From Lysinibacillus sp. JNUCC-52 (GTDB lineage: Bacteria; Bacillota; Bacilli; Bacillales_A; Planococcaceae): a DNA stretch of 64,000 nt. Of the stretch, positions 1,917 through 54,064 are shown piece by piece (within the stretch, counting starts at the first letter, position 1; each line of letters opens with the position of its first letter). Under the pieces are notes generated by a model. That model saw only the letters and a list, made by a program, of their open reading frames with translations, was not told where the DNA came from and searched no databases. Both the position numbers and the translations under genes were made by a program. The stretch is taken from positions 2,037,501 through 2,101,500 of the forward strand of contig NZ_CP065546.1 of the NCBI RefSeq assembly GCF_015999545.1. Direction: 5' to 3'.

Positions 1917-4412
1917 TCAACCTTGAGCGAACAAGCTTGATTGTGAATTGGCTTTATTAATCGCTGACTCCATAGCTGTGAATTGCTTCCAATAGCGAGC
2001 TTCGATATCTTCTAGTTTTCGCTTCCAAGTACTAATTCGACTTTCTGTATCCACTAAATTTTTCCCAATCGAATATTGAGCGTCTGTCATTGTTGAGCGG
2101 CCAGCTTTTTTCTCGATAGTAATTTCGAAAGATTTCATCGACTCCCGTAGCTTCTCTAAATAACCACGTGAATCTACTGTTTTACCATCTATTACATCCT
2201 CTTTTTTACCTTCACTATTTTTAAAAAGCTTTTCAACCGCATCTGGATCTTCTTCTAAAGCTTTTCGTAATTTTGCTTCATCAATTTCTAATGTGCCACC
2301 ATCATTATAATTTTTAGAAGTAGAAATCCCAATATTATAAAGCGTATTATACTTAGAATCAATAGATGGATTAGATTGATACACTAATGAACGCATATTT
2401 GAAATTCCTTCACGAATAAGAGTGTCTCCTCGAAGTAAGCCACTCTTCGCTTTTTCTTCCCAAAGCTTAATTTCACTTTCCGACATTTCTTCTCTTTGAT
2501 CACTAGTTAATGGCGTATAATCACGATATTTCGTTTCTTTCGTTTGATCATTTAAATCTTTTATAAAACCATTATAAGTAGTGACAAATTCTTTAATTTT
2601 AGCCATAATGTCGTCAACATTTGTTGTTGATGTCATCGTCACTGCTTGTGCTTTTGGTGCGGCATTTACGATTGTATCATCTACACTGCCATCTGGTTTT
2701 AAAATACCAGCTGCATCAGCATCTGCTTTGGCCGCATTTTGCGTACTAGTAGCTTCATTTAAGCGTGTAACAGCAGCTTTTTCTTCAGCATCTGCAGTTA
2801 AATATTCGTTTCGCAGAATATTTTGATCCGCAAGTGCGTAAAATTTATTTTTTTGATCAGCTGATAAGTCATTCCAAATCTTTTTTTGGTCATCTGTTAA
2901 ATTCTCTTCTTTTACAGTACCATTTTGTAAACCTTTTAATACAGCATCGCCAAATTGACTATACTTTAGTTTTAAATCATCTCCTTGCGCTTTTTCCGCA
3001 TACGTTTTTAACGTTGCTGAATCTGTTGCAATTAAATTAGTTAAATCATCTTTACTTAATGATTTTAATGCATCTTTTACTTCTTGTGAAAATTCCGTAT
3101 TATCGTCAATATCTTTATGAATTTTATCAATAGAATCATTAGCATTATACGGGAAGCGTTTTAGTGCATCAATGGCATTTTGATCAAAGTCTTTTAATAT
3201 TATCCCATACTGTTCGTAATCAGCTTGAGTTTTAAATGCTTTTAGTTGCGTTGTATCAAGAGAAGATAAAGCTTGTAATTCACCATCCGTTAAAGATTGG
3301 AATTTTTCTATCTTCTCTGGACTCATACCACTTTCATCTATTGCCTTCCTTATATCCTCGACCGATTGACCTGCAGATAATTTATCATTAATAAAACTAG
3401 CTTCATCGTTTGCTAAGCCTTTCCAAAAATCGCTTCCTAGTTTATTATATTGCACTTGTTGTGAAAAAGTTAAAGAACCACCAAAAGCATCTGTATAAGC
3501 CTGGTTGTGTGCTGTTGTGTAATTATTAATATCGCTCGCACCATAGGCTCCTTTTTTAGTTGCAAGGTTTGCTTGTTTATTTGCTAAATTAGTTGTAGCA
3601 TTTTTAAATTCTTCCACAGCAGCCTTATATTTATCTGCTATTGTTTGAACACCGTTGAACGTTTCTTTTAACGTAACATTATAACCCGAAATATTAAACG
3701 TATTAGTTGTTCGTTCTGTTGCTATACCATTCACTGTAAAAATAGCATTTTTTCCTTCTGTAGTTTGGACTTTACTAGGGTCAGCAAATCCTAACTTATT
3801 GAAAATATCTACTCCACCTGTAACTTTAATTTCCTCATCGCCTTTAACATCACCAGTGTTCTTGGCAGTAAATGAGAATCGGCCGTTTTCAAATACAGCA
3901 CTAATCCCTGCATTGCTATTATTCACTTTATTAATAAACTGATTTACAGTCATATCAGAAGTGATTTCAATTTTTGTTGCTTCACTAGCTAATTGACCAT
4001 TGTTTTGAATAGCTTTAAATTCAATCGTTCCTGTTGCTCCTAAATCAGCCATTTTTGTTGAACCTACAGCACTTACTTGATCACCGACTTTCCGACCTGC
4101 TGTAGCTAATTGTGATACCCCTTCAATGGAAAGTGATCCTGCAGCACTTCCCGTTGCAATAGCAGAGACTAAATTAGAATTTGAACTTGCTGCAGTTTTA
4201 GAAATGAGGCTCTTTAATATTAGATTATCTGAAATGTAAGTATCGAATGTTTTAAGCTTAGTATTTACGCTACGATACGCATCACGTTGCCACTCATATG
4301 TTTGTTTCTTTTGATATAACTTATTTAACGGTGCTTTCTCAGCACTCATTAATTTTTTTACTATCGAGTCTATATCCATTCCGGATGCTAATCCACCGAT
4401 TCTATTTACCAT
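1917..4412 (-). CDS. fliD: Flagellar hook-associated protein 2 (filament cap) FliD, enlarged
   Basis: 831 residues, against roughly 500 in B. subtilis. Residues 1-100 are a standard FliD N-terminus (IGGLASGMDIDSIVKKLMSAEK) and residues 590-831 a standard C-terminus, starting TMTSTTNVDDIMAKIKEFV and ending in the long helix that reaches the hook junction. Between about residues 255 and 588 lies an extra helical, Ala/Lys/Asp-rich segment that interrupts the usual D2/D3 region. FliD forms the cap that folds flagellin at the growing tip. The ATG at 4410-4412 follows AGGAGG. It is co-transcribed with flaG upstream (22 bp gap). The extra segment would be exposed at the filament tip and may be an adhesion or variable domain (inference). 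Confidence 0.95.
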   Translation of the reverse strand: MVNRIGGLASGMDIDSIVKKLMSAEKAPLNKLYQKKQTYEWQRDAYRSVNTKLKTFDTYISDNLILKSLISKTAASSNSNLVSAIATGSAAGSLSIEGVSQLATAGRKVGDQVSAVGSTKMADLGATGTIEFKAIQNNGQLASEATKIEITSDMTVNQFINKVNNSNAGISAVFENGRFSFTAKNTGDVKGDEEIKVTGGVDIFNKLGFADPSKVQTTEGKNAIFTVNGIATERTTNTFNISGYNVTLKETFNGVQTIADKYKAAVEEFKNATTNLANKQANLATKKGAYGASDINNYTTAHNQAYTDAFGGSLTFSQQVQYNKLGSDFWKGLANDEASFINDKLSAGQSVEDIRKAIDESGMSPEKIEKFQSLTDGELQALSSLDTTQLKAFKTQADYEQYGIILKDFDQNAIDALKRFPYNANDSIDKIHKDIDDNTEFSQEVKDALKSLSKDDLTNLIATDSATLKTYAEKAQGDDLKLKYSQFGDAVLKGLQNGTVKEENLTDDQKKIWNDLSADQKNKFYALADQNILRNEYLTADAEEKAAVTRLNEATSTQNAAKADADAAGILKPDGSVDDTIVNAAPKAQAVTMTSTTNVDDIMAKIKEFVTTYNGFIKDLNDQTKETKYRDYTPLTSDQREEMSESEIKLWEEKAKSGLLRGDTLIREGISNMRSLVYQSNPSIDSKYNTLYNIGISTSKNYNDGGTLEIDEAKLRKALEEDPDAVEKLFKNSEGKKEDVIDGKTVDSRGYLEKLRESMKSFEITIEKKAGRSTMTDAQYSIGKNLVDTESRISTWKRKLEDIEARYWKQFTAMESAINKANSQSSLFAQG

Positions 4413-27887: not shown

Positions 27888-28086
27888 ATCGGCGATTTAC
27901 TCAGGTTTATCGGCGATTCCTCGTGTTCTATCGGCGATTCGATAGAGTTTATCGGCGATTCACGCGGTTCTATCGGCGATTCCTCGTGTTCTATCGGCGA
28001 TTCGATAGAGTTTATCGGCGTTTCATGCGGTTCTATCTAAGATTTCAACCAGGTTTACTGGCGATTCGCTCACGCTATCAGAGATT
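27888..28086. repeat. Array A of 21-bp phased repeats
   Basis: Ten copies of the core ATCGGCGATT (last three diverged) start at 27888, 27909, 27930, 27951, 27972, 27993, 28014, 28035, 28057 and 28077. The first eight are exactly 21 bp apart. The 11-bp spacers vary, but two adjacent units (about 27930-27971) recur almost unchanged at 27993-28034. Because 21 bp equals seven codons the array stays open in more than one frame (for example IGDSSCS repeats), but no start context supports a gene. It sits between the degV terminator and comFA and occupies most of that gap. Confidence 0.92.
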
Positions 28087-33835: not shown

Positions 33836-33950
33836 TTCCGCGCTTCAAGACCCTTTTTCCGCGATACGGCATCTTTTTTCCGCGTTACATGGGATTATTC
33901 CCGCGCTTTAGACCTATATTTCCGCGAAGCAACAAGGTTTTTCCGCGATA
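33836..33950. repeat. Array B of 21-bp phased repeats
   Basis: Six copies of TTCCGCG (one reads TCCCGCG) start at 33836, 33857, 33878, 33899, 33920 and 33941, each exactly 21 bp apart, with unrelated 11-14 bp spacers that are often T-rich before the core. It fills the space between the convergent terminators of the LCP gene and tagO. Confidence 0.88.
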
Positions 33951-38648: not shown

Positions 38649-38780
38649 AACAGCGCTTCACTCCAGTTTACAGCGTTTCATTGACTTCTATCGGCGGTTC
38701 GTCCGAGTTATCGGCGATAAGCACTGTCCTTCTGGCGATTACCGTACTTTACTGGCAATCCGCACGTCCTTCTAGCACAT
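38649..38780. repeat. Array C, degenerate 20-21-bp phased repeats
   Basis: Diverged cores start near 38649 (AACAGCGCTT), 38669 (TACAGCGTTT), 38690 (ATCGGCGGTT), 38710 (ATCGGCGATA), 38731 (TCTGGCGATT), 38751 (ACTGGCAATC) and 38771 (TCTAGCACAT), spaced 20-21 bp. It looks like a decayed member of the array A family and fills the space between two convergent terminators. Confidence 0.7.
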
Positions 38781-50570: not shown

Positions 50571-52466
50571 ATGAAAAAACTATCAATCATTGCATTGCTT
50601 ATGGCAGTGGTTAGCTTGCTCTTTTGGCAACCCCAAATGGCATCTGCTGATGAACTTTCAGGGCATGCTCATGAAAATGGTCTGCGCTACTTAATTTCGA
50701 AGAACGCTTTAGTAACGGATGCTAATGGCAGTTATCGTCCAAATGACAATGTCACGCGTGGTGAATTTGCTTCTTATTTAGCGAAGGTAATGAATCTTGA
50801 AGCAAATAACGGTATGGCATTTACAGATGTTCCAGATACATATGTGTATGCAAAGGACATTCAATTGGCTGCTACAGCTGGAATTATTACTGGATACACA
50901 GACGGTTCATTTAAACCTGATGCAGCCATTTCAAGACAGCATATGGCAATTATGCTGGAGAGAGCTATTGATTATTTAAAGATTCCTAAGGGTACTTCAT
51001 CCATTACGTTTAAGGATAATGCATCCATTATTAAAGACTATCGCAATGCCGTAGCAATCGGTGCACATTTAGGAATCATTATCGGTTCTGATGGCTACTT
51101 CATGCCAGAAAAAAATGCAACAATTGGACAAGCTGCAACGTTTATTCAACGTTTAATGTTACTTGCAGGTGATGCTGCTGCTGACTTCTCTACTTATGCG
51201 ATTAAAGAAATTTCAAATGGTACACTAGTTGGCAATCAAGGCTTCACAAGCTTTGATGCTGCGGAAAAAGCCTTAACAAAAAATACGCAAGTTATCGTTC
51301 AAAAAGATAAAATTGTAAAAATGACCTCTGGCTATGTTGTAACTAATAAATATGTTGCACTTTATTCAGAAACGATTAAAGATCAAATCGCTGTTGCTGG
51401 TAATACAGAAATGGAATATATCAGCAGTGATGCAGCACAAGTAAAAGTGCGATTAGCTGGTCAAGTAGGCTATTTAAAACAGGCCGATGTAACGCTAATT
51501 CCTTTTTCACTAAGTAAGGGACGTTCTTACTATTCAAACGAAAATGGTGAAATTAAACACACACTATACGATTACGCAACAAATAAATATTCTTCAAGCT
51601 ATGTTTACGGAAAAGCACCTGCCTTCATGAAGCAAGGTGAAAAATACTATAGCTGGAATGGTATTTACTTCACAAATGGTAATGGCTCTTCTAAAGGTGA
51701 CGCTTATAACTATTATCAATTTTTACCTGCTCGTGCAACAACACAATACACAGCAGAAGAAATCGATGCTTACATTATGAACAAGCTTGCGGAAATGGAA
51801 AGTACAGGTATTACACTTTATAAAGATGCCACTACGAAAAGTAAGCTTATCGGGTTAGGCCAAACATTAAAAGAGGTTGAGGCAAACTCGCATATTAACG
51901 CCATGTTAATTTTGGCACTTGCTCAGCATGAAAGTGCTTATGGTATGAGTGATCATGCACAAAACTTAAACAACCTATTTGGTTTATATGTTTATGACAC
52001 GAATCCCCTTAATAAGAAATTTGACAGTGTAGCTGCAAATATTAATGAACTGGTTGATAAGTTCCTACAACCAAACTATATTACACCAGGTGGTGCTCCT
52101 GGGAAAAACTATGCAAACGGGGCAGTAGTCGGTTCAAAAGCACTTGGTTTTAACGTAAAATATGCTTCTGACCCGTACTGGGGAGCTAAAATTGCTGGAC
52201 ACTACTATCGTGCTGAAAAAGCGTTAGGCTTTAAGGATGCAAATAATCCTTATAAAATTGGCTTAACAACAACGACTGGTTTAAATGTACGTGTAGACAC
52301 TTCTACTAGCAATAGCCCGCTCTTCACATATGCTAGAAGTGGGATGCCTGTTATTGTTATCAACACAAACCTTAACGGCTGGTATGAAGTACTATCTGAT
52401 AAGCTCCACACTGGTTCAGCTTACATTAGTAAAGACTATATTCAGTTTATAGATACAGTGAAATAA
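50571..52466 (+). CDS. SLH-anchored endo-beta-N-acetylglucosaminidase
   Basis: 631 residues: signal peptide (ending MASA, about residue 26), three SLH repeats (about 30-205; RPNDNVTRGEFASYLAKVM, FKPDAAISRQHMAIML), a linker domain, then a glucosaminidase domain (about 405-555) with the catalytic Glu in LALAQHESAYGMSDHA and NNLFGLYVYD, and a C-terminal SH3-like domain (about 560-630, LTTTTGLNVRVDTSTSNSP). It hydrolyses GlcNAc-MurNAc bonds in peptidoglycan. Preceded by AGGAGG. Followed by a terminator and array D. Confidence 0.92.
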   Translation: MKKLSIIALLMAVVSLLFWQPQMASADELSGHAHENGLRYLISKNALVTDANGSYRPNDNVTRGEFASYLAKVMNLEANNGMAFTDVPDTYVYAKDIQLAATAGIITGYTDGSFKPDAAISRQHMAIMLERAIDYLKIPKGTSSITFKDNASIIKDYRNAVAIGAHLGIIIGSDGYFMPEKNATIGQAATFIQRLMLLAGDAAADFSTYAIKEISNGTLVGNQGFTSFDAAEKALTKNTQVIVQKDKIVKMTSGYVVTNKYVALYSETIKDQIAVAGNTEMEYISSDAAQVKVRLAGQVGYLKQADVTLIPFSLSKGRSYYSNENGEIKHTLYDYATNKYSSSYVYGKAPAFMKQGEKYYSWNGIYFTNGNGSSKGDAYNYYQFLPARATTQYTAEEIDAYIMNKLAEMESTGITLYKDATTKSKLIGLGQTLKEVEANSHINAMLILALAQHESAYGMSDHAQNLNNLFGLYVYDTNPLNKKFDSVAANINELVDKFLQPNYITPGGAPGKNYANGAVVGSKALGFNVKYASDPYWGAKIAGHYYRAEKALGFKDANNPYKIGLTTTTGLNVRVDTSTSNSPLFTYARSGMPVIVINTNLNGWYEVLSDKLHTGSAYISKDYIQFIDTVK

Positions 52467-52470
52467 AACA

Positions 52471-52508
52471 AAAGCTCCATCCAATAATGCTATTGGATGG
52501 AGCTTTTT
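52471..52508 (+). terminator. Terminator of the SLH glucosaminidase gene
   Basis: AAAGCTCCATCCAATA pairs with TATTGGATGGAGCTTT, 4-base loop, followed by TTT. Confidence 0.92.
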
Positions 52509-52526
52509 TACATGCAATACGGTAGA

Positions 52527-52725
52527 TTCCGCGATATAAGGCTAGGATTCCGCGATTCTACTCCTTTTTTCCGCGGTATGACGCTGGAATTCCGCGGTTC
52601 TGCACCTTTTTTCCGCGGTGTGACGCTGGAATTCCGCGATTCTGCACCTTTTTTCCGCGGTATGACGCTGGAATTCCGCGATTCTGCACCTTTTTTCCGC
52701 GGTATGACGCTGGAATTCCGCGATT
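52527..52725. repeat. Array D of 21-bp phased repeats with 42-bp super-period
   Basis: Ten copies of TTCCGCG start at 52527, 52548, 52569, 52590, 52611, 52632, 52653, 52674, 52695 and 52716, each exactly 21 bp apart. From the third unit on, spacers alternate between a TATGACGCTGGAA type and a TTCTGCACCTTTT type, giving a 42-bp higher-order repeat that is nearly identical over three cycles. Array boundaries are the two convergent terminators. One frame is open (FRGMTLEFRDSAPF repeats) only because 21 is divisible by three. Confidence 0.95.
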
Positions 52726-52747
52726 CACTCCCCCTATGCAGGAATAA

Positions 52748-52780
52748 TAAAAGGGCTGTCCTTAATAGGGCAGCCCTTTA
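52748..52780 (-). terminator. Terminator of the Wzy-like gene
   Basis: AAAGGGCTG pairs with CAGCCCTTT, followed by TATTATTCC on the minus strand. Confidence 0.85.
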
Positions 52781-52783
52781 CTG

Positions 52784-54064
52784 TTAGTATCGAAGTTTTC
52801 TTTGCTCTGTTTTTATAATTGCTGATGCAATTACTACAAAACCTAACATTAATATAAAGATTAAATCAAGTAAGCCTGTGTGCATCGACACTGTAAACAG
52901 TGTAATGACAAATGCGTAGGCTACTGAGTGGAAGCTACGGATGCCACCTTGTTTAACTTTATTATAGATTAATGAAATTAATACACCATATAATAAGAAG
53001 CCAATTGCTACAAGCGCATAGCCACCATCTAGGAATAGTTGTCCGATAAAGGTAGGTGTTGTTGTTCTTGTTGGACGTGTAATATATTTACCTTCTTCCA
53101 CGCTCAATGAGTTCACAACTTCCGTCACCTTCATACGAGGTGAAATTTGCTCACCAGGAAGAATCGTATTAAAGATCCCTTTGTGAATTTCGCCTTTTAA
53201 ATAGCCTTCTTCTTGCGTGTATTCGATAATTTTACTTAAAACGATATGACCTGTCACACTTTCACCATTAATAGAACGCATCCATTTAGGTGTTAAATTT
53301 ACTTTTTGCTCAACAGTTAAAAGCTTTTCTTTTTCTGTTTCTGTCAATTCAACATCTGGTTGATCACGATTATTGAATTCTTTCGTTGTATCTTCTGTTA
53401 CTACTCGTAAGAAACCAAACATCGAGAACGCAACACCGATTACAAATAATGCTGTTAGGAACCAAGTTAATTTTACACGTTTCACAACATAGTGGAAAAT
53501 AATAATTCCAGTAAATAGCATAATAATTAATGGCGTACGATAACCCATTAAAAGGAACAAGAACATTACAACAGCAAAGATCGTGCCGTATACAATTGCT
53601 TTCTTCCATGTCATATGCTTTTCTAAAATCATTTTGTAAGATAATAACAGTAAAATTCCATACCATAATAATTGGCTGAAGAAGTTTAGTTTTGGATCGA
53701 GATTACGACGATTCGATTCATCTGAAATCCCTAAACCTCCACCAAAAATCATCATTAAATAAGAAGCTAAACCGATTATAGTTAGTAATACAACAATGTG
53801 GATAACATATTTACCTAAGAAAGATAGCCCAAATGATGGGATTGTCCATTGTAATTTATCAATAATATAAACACCGATATAATAGCAAACAAGTGCTACT
53901 AGTACCGCTGGCAAAATTGATACACGAACGTTAAATAATTCAAATCGATGGAAATCGAATAGACTTGTAAAGAAATATAGTACTAATATAAAAGGTAAAA
54001 AGAAATACGGTGAAAACGTATCAATCTTATTGACCTTTGCGAAAACTTGCTTCAGTTTATTCAT
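52784..54064 (-). CDS. Wzy-like O-antigen/wall polymer polymerase
   Basis: 426 residues, about eleven membrane segments and one large extracellular loop (about residues 215-330, with RVVTEDTTKEFNNRDQ, TPTFIGQLFLDGGY near its end), the layout of O-antigen polymerases. In Bacillaceae such proteins are candidates for polymerising the secondary cell wall polymer. Near csaB and murJ homologues. No catalytic motif is recognisable in this divergent family, so function rests on topology and context. Start codon follows AGGAGG. Confidence 0.7.
   Translation of the reverse strand: MNKLKQVFAKVNKIDTFSPYFFLPFILVLYFFTSLFDFHRFELFNVRVSILPAVLVALVCYYIGVYIIDKLQWTIPSFGLSFLGKYVIHIVVLLTIIGLASYLMMIFGGGLGISDESNRRNLDPKLNFFSQLLWYGILLLLSYKMILEKHMTWKKAIVYGTIFAVVMFLFLLMGYRTPLIIMLFTGIIIFHYVVKRVKLTWFLTALFVIGVAFSMFGFLRVVTEDTTKEFNNRDQPDVELTETEKEKLLTVEQKVNLTPKWMRSINGESVTGHIVLSKIIEYTQEEGYLKGEIHKGIFNTILPGEQISPRMKVTEVVNSLSVEEGKYITRPTRTTTPTFIGQLFLDGGYALVAIGFLLYGVLISLIYNKVKQGGIRSFHSVAYAFVITLFTVSMHTGLLDLIFILMLGFVVIASAIIKTEQRKLRY

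Follow-up and report, generated by a model that had tools for sequence, protein, structure and literature searches.

Plasmid-origin iterons are direct repeats spaced about two helical turns apart, to which a Rep protein binds cooperatively. REP/BIME sequences, characterised by GTAG/CGTC tags and a RAYT transposase, are small palindromic repeats that lie in intergenic regions near gene ends, and we know of no strict 21-bp step in them. KOPS and SRS are polar chromosome motifs that occur as single, scattered octamers. STAR elements of Staphylococcus are described as GC-rich short direct repeats in intergenic regions with no known function (PMC3532100). Their core is T(G/A/T)TGTTG(G/T)GGCCC(C/A), with at least 40 bp between cores, and their copy number varies while their position is held within a species and differs between species (PMC3532100).

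We analysed a window of 64 kb (G000:C1:2037501-2101500, where G000 is the 4.68-Mb source genome) that contains several intergenic arrays of short direct repeats. These arrays are most like the staphylococcal STAR elements, from which they differ in core, in a near-strict 21-bp step, in cross-species position and in the existence of a second core. Like STAR, they are intergenic direct repeats with locus-specific spacers. However, TTCCGCG cores are separated by 14 bp and STAR cores by at least 40 bp, the part of the STAR account used mentions no 21-bp phase, and STAR positions are species-specific whereas several arrays here recur across species (PMC3532100). The STAR core TGTTGNGGCCC had 0 matches in the 64-kb window. 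Direct repeats at about two helical turns are shared with iterons, but here many arrays are dispersed over the chromosome; among 48 flanking proteins scanned (E 1e-5 or 1e-10; 20 of 28 listed sister-family flanks and 20 of 26 listed G000 flanks taken in), 6 of them without any family match, we found neither a Rep domain nor a common theme. The arrays resemble REP/BIME in being small palindromic repeats in intergenic gaps near gene ends. As with KOPS/SRS, arrays of the second core, TATCGGCGATT, follow the local GC skew and probably the replication arm, but they form phased rows, and polarity is absent in the sister family introduced below (10 versus 12). One array compared with plasmid and phage sequences gave no match. 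Searches of the open-licence literature found nothing on Lysinibacillus or on 21-bp intergenic repeats, nor for an iteron query, and a TTCCGCG query gave no title on such arrays among the best matches listed.

Array D and the other arrays of the window

Array D (52527..52736, plus strand) consists of ten 21-bp units, each beginning with TTCCGCG. All ten cores are exact and start between 52527 and 52716 at a constant step of 21 bp, while GTATGACGCTGGAA-like and ATTCTGCACCTTTT-like spacers take turns and thereby create a 42-bp super-repeat (4.8 copies, 93% match, TRF score 337), exactly as an earlier sequence-only reading of this DNA had described it. On one strand of the window TTCCGCG occurs 16 times against 1.95 expected under a first-order Markov model of the window, and pairs of TTCCGCG 21 bp apart occur 12 times against 0.00006 expected under the same model.

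The array is located between two convergent genes, one encoding a protein with SLH and glucosaminidase domains (50571..52466, plus strand) and the other a member of the O-antigen polymerase family (52784..54064, minus strand). Downstream of the left gene lies a terminator-like inverted repeat (52470..52507), which the scan flagged on the minus strand only and in which a plus-strand T run is also visible by eye. A second inverted repeat, AAAGGGCTG...CAGCCCTTT (52750..52779), was recognised by eye 3' of the right gene and received no flag from the terminator scan.

Three further arrays had been proposed to share the 21-bp period. Array A (27888..28020, plus strand) belongs to the TATCGGCGATT family and contains seven ATCGGCG cores in 21-bp steps, with a 63-bp super-repeat. 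Array B (33836..33947, plus strand) belongs to the TTCCGCG family, with five exact cores and one mismatched core in 21-bp steps; arrays occupy the same gap in G161 (L165) and G189 (L199). For these two the shared period is exact, but array C (about 38650..38760, plus strand) is a degenerate second-core (TATCGGCGATT) or TATCGGCG-like array with steps of 20-21 bp, as judged by eye. Since the core of A is different, the proposed common consensus W-T-C-S-G-C-G-A-T-T merges two families. That three of the four arrays lie between convergent genes was correct: B, C and D occupy convergent gaps, and A lies between two minus-strand genes.

Distribution and placement across genomes

Phased intergenic arrays are a real family that is present in several genera of Bacilli. 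In the G000 genome, two TTCCGCG cores at 21 bp were matched 70+60 times on the two strands and three cores 40+42 times, with 0+0 matches for the reversed-pattern control in either case. Matches were found in 37 of 200 genomes of the family, including 18 of 29 of the genus (G000 among them); the controls were empty except in a few genomes, of which G095 had more control than true matches. With 130 core pairs in the G000 genome versus 0 in the control, the observation holds on a scale larger than had been claimed. A looser core, YCGCGR repeated three times, was matched in 21 of 32 genus genomes, with a control that was non-empty in 4 of the 32 (2-3 matches per strand). Any function of the arrays seems dispensable, since the remaining 11 of 32 genomes had no match even to this looser pattern. 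Class-wide, three copies of ATTCCGCGR were matched only in G000, G345 and G488 among 398 genomes. A wider array search returned at least 80 loci, with Treponema, Streptomyces and others among the matches listed, some of which may be coding.

Several loci outside the source genome have features of their own. In Oceanobacillus rekensis (L050, about 3320-3540), 11 TTCCGCG cores are spaced by 21 and 20 bp in turn. Sporosarcina contigs L056, L074, L078 and L095 carry 21-bp arrays with a different type of spacer that are possibly coding. A Bacillaceae-like array was also seen in L115, a contig labelled Chryseobacterium sp. ISL-80, a record that may be mislabelled.

Arrays of the second core, searched as three copies of TCGGCG, were found in G000 (37+6) and G161 (18+8), where the control was 0 in each case; the remaining 30 of 32 genus genomes gave no match. 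Steps between TATCGGCGATT cores were 21, 42 or 63 bp in 128 of 130 cases (31 arrays), a proportion partly preset by the selection of loci with three cores at 21 bp, and the spacers held little information. Where G000 and G161 have a TATCGGCGATT array (L308/L331), the corresponding gap of G166 carries a TTCCGCG array.

TTCCGCG arrays avoid divergent gaps (4 of 59 array rows versus 54 of 232 control gaps). Their preference for convergent gaps was weaker than first stated: enrichment was evident over all rows (27/59 versus 35/232) but not clear once orthologous loci were collapsed to 30 distinct ones, with gap class assigned by hand (9/30, p = 0.06). For TATCGGCGATT arrays, with orthologous pairs counted among them, 12 of 31 lay in convergent gaps (p = 0.004). 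We rejected replication polarity as a property of TTCCGCG arrays: although the purine-rich strand was the G-rich strand in all 56 of the 59 rows with skew above 0.1, ordinary gaps behave alike (63/67 of the same sign), and the sign alone is thus uninformative. The TATCGGCGATT arrays run opposite to the GC skew in 29 of 31 cases, and in 13 of 13 within convergent or divergent gaps, counts in which several arrays form orthologous pairs and co-directional gaps cannot part polarity from gene direction. Their orientation by local GC skew probably corresponds to the replication arm. In G000, the region from 2.35 to 3.44 Mb (about 1.1 Mb around dnaA at 2.774 Mb) contains zero three-core TTCCGCG arrays, and TATCGGCGATT arrays are present there.

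The positions of the arrays are conserved between species. Eleven of 12 G161 arrays have flanking genes in common with a G000 array, on both sides in 9 cases. The gap 3' of a gene for a NERD-domain protein contains a 21-bp array, of three units upward, in 19 of 19 genus genomes with an ortholog (60-100% identity); the remaining 13 of 32 genus genomes have distant NERD homologs only.

Cores and spacing persist while spacers change

The least constrained view of the spacing comes from the sister family, that is, two genomes of one genus (G345 and G488) from a Bacilli family other than that of Lysinibacillus; the likeness of their arrays to those of L083, L086, L103 and L115 suggests Mesobacillus. 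With spacing left free between 12 and 42 bp, 32 of 50 core pairs fell at 21 bp, 15 at 42 bp and 3 elsewhere (control 0), although some elements are orthologous between the two genomes, so that not all 50 pairs are independent. Inspection by eye showed a damaged core midway in each of the 15 pairs at 42 bp. In this family, which is free of recent duplication, the spacers between paired cores are unrelated to each other. The core-anchored units read TAATTCCGCGAAAW followed by about 7 positions almost without information; in all such unit tables the fixed CGCG and strong core are products of the anchoring, and it is the blank spacers that are evidence. Sixteen of the 22 sister-family entries are 92 bp, or five units, long, and in 12 of the 22 AACTGGA follows soon after the last core, where by eye it frequently forms an arm of an inverted repeat. 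Most of the intergenic elements at loci L275-L295 comprise five ATTCCGCGAAA cores with a 21-bp step, and in many cases an inverted repeat of the AACTGGAA...TTCCAG type comes next.

Seven orthologous pairs of arrays from these two genomes showed identities of 270/282 in cores, 241/302 in spacers and 1969/2253 in flanks, where core identity is favoured by the selection of loci through exact cores in both genomes. After exclusion of the two best cores from every pair, core identity (144/156, 92%) still exceeded that of spacers (80%, p = 0.0004) but did not indicate clearly slower change than in the flanks (87%, p = 0.08, 7 pairs). Spacer gaps occurred in 2 of the 7 pairs.

In Lysinibacillus, identity within the middle unit was higher in core than in spacer columns for G000 (0.87-0.99 versus 0.68, 107 triplets) and G161 (0.92-1.00 versus 0.73, 170 triplets). 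In the homogenised arrays of other genus members there was nearly no difference (0.96-1.00 versus 0.94, 206 triplets), and a mixed set of Sporosarcina and Bacillaceae showed none (0.72-1.00 versus 0.80, 32 triplets). This contrast indicates that long arrays undergo slippage and homogenisation, whereas in old ones it is chiefly the cores and the spacing that are retained. The long arrays of Lysinibacillus are clearly subject to slippage, with rows that grow and shrink by duplication of units, and orthologs differ in length by about one whole unit. The ortholog of array D in G161 is likewise of the 42-bp type and differs in length, with multiples of 21 kept.

The step itself was 21 bp in 719 of 794 short spacings, counted without one nested duplicate (L202) that is included among the 59 TTCCGCG rows. 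The 75 others include 57 at 19-20 bp, only 4 at 22-23 bp and 9 at 25-28 bp, the last of these repeated within a few arrays. Steps of 19-20 and 25-28 bp show that the 21-bp rule is soft in Lysinibacillus, and the fact that steps shorten far more often than they lengthen looks like deletion bias rather than phase correction. These off-step spacings count against a strict form of the proposal that all cores face one side of the helix.

Rows of putative protein sites and competing explanations

Because cores and their 21-bp step outlast the spacers in G000, G161 and the sister family, and because the same gaps recur across species, the best reading of the arrays, to which we give about an even chance, is that of maintained DNA-level rows of putative protein sites. 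Cores and spacing that outlive the spacers would characterise sites recognised by a protein able to sense the spacing as well. Each array may then be a chromosomal row of binding sites for one sequence-specific protein, probably a dimer, since the cores form short inverted repeats (TTC-CGC-GAA or TTCCGCGGAA; ATCG-G-CGAT). At two helical turns apart, adjacent dimers would sit on one face of the DNA and touch, so that the row would be bound cooperatively. Of the cooperatively binding protein suggested by the sequence-only reading, phased sites at the DNA level are thus the part best supported by these comparisons, but the off-step spacings speak against a strict helical rule. The rows would probably act on chromosome structure and not on single genes, since the flanking genes examined lack a common theme; most rows are found close to gene ends and few in divergent gaps.

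The arrays could instead be neutral minisatellites, in which a 21-bp unit is duplicated by replication slippage wherever it is harmless and likeness among cores reflects ancestry and homogenisation. We consider this possible, though on the unlikely side. Higher-order repeats of 42 and 63 bp, very homogeneous arrays in several species, changes of about one whole unit between orthologous arrays and the depletion from divergent gaps are all in its favour. Such repeats should diverge alike in core and spacer, as was the case in the homogenised arrays and the outgroup but not in G000, G161 and G345/G488, where cores changed more slowly than spacers; unrelated spacers between fixed cores at fixed 21-bp spacing would also be left unaccounted for. 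Replication slippage, named from the start as a main alternative, is at work in the long arrays, but alone it fits less well than rows of protein sites.

It is improbable that the arrays are selfish or nuclease-driven repeats, in which an enzyme reads the core and drives its copying. The NERD-domain protein is a lead here, as its gene borders an array in each of the 19 Lysinibacillus genomes with an ortholog and at one gap in both sister-family genomes. The NERD-domain genes of L040 (3902-4882) and L277 (9180-10184) are homologous (about 31% identity) and adjoin arrays in both families, and by eye their products contain CxxC-like motifs, with a zinc-ribbon-like CxxC pair. However, G093 has core triplets on four contigs and no close NERD ortholog, which is why we retain the protein only as a lead; some NERD homolog is present in 32 of 32 genus genomes, the association may only mark a clade, and most G161 arrays have stayed in a gap that also holds a G000 array instead of moving.

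Even less probable is an RNA element, in which the arrays would be transcribed and work at the RNA level, as 3' regulatory or structured elements. On either strand, the predicted fold of array D is better than that of shuffled sequences (z -2.6 and -2.75), and in several species the array begins a short way past a stop codon, with no terminator visible by eye. Yet any palindromic repeat is expected to self-pair, D lies between two terminator-like inverted repeats (one flagged), the sense of the arrays relative to genes varies, and Rfam gave no match at the gathering score, three sister-family loci included. A seven-codon coding repeat is hardly credible. In its favour, the 21-bp step is divisible by 3, an open frame of 96 codons covers D, and the spacings in D and in its G161 ortholog remain multiples of 21 (with open frames in the G161 gap of up to 172 codons without Met, and of 137 and 111 with Met). 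However, any repeat of this kind is expected to contain open frames, which therefore cannot serve as a test, the D frame has its ATG inside the terminator-like repeat, and steps of 19, 20 and 40 bp in sister arrays disrupt the frame.

Rows of protein sites might extend to a system of chromosome-wide addressing in Bacilli, with several orthogonal pairs of a dimeric protein and its 21-bp array at fixed gene-end addresses, oriented by replication arm in Lysinibacillus. We regard this extension as speculative and unlikely; the swapped core in the gap shared by G166 with G000 and G161 looks as if site and protein were exchangeable while the address is kept.

If the arrays are not bound, they represent a minisatellite whose core is kept by something besides ancestry, which would likewise be unexplained. 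With these arrays, the puzzle posed by STAR elements, namely why short GC-rich intergenic repeats persist, becomes directly testable. If they are bound as proposed, the arrays would provide a natural series for asking why bacteria keep phased repeats, and would reveal a level of chromosome organisation not described before, whose code, a core plus a 21-bp step, is simple to read.
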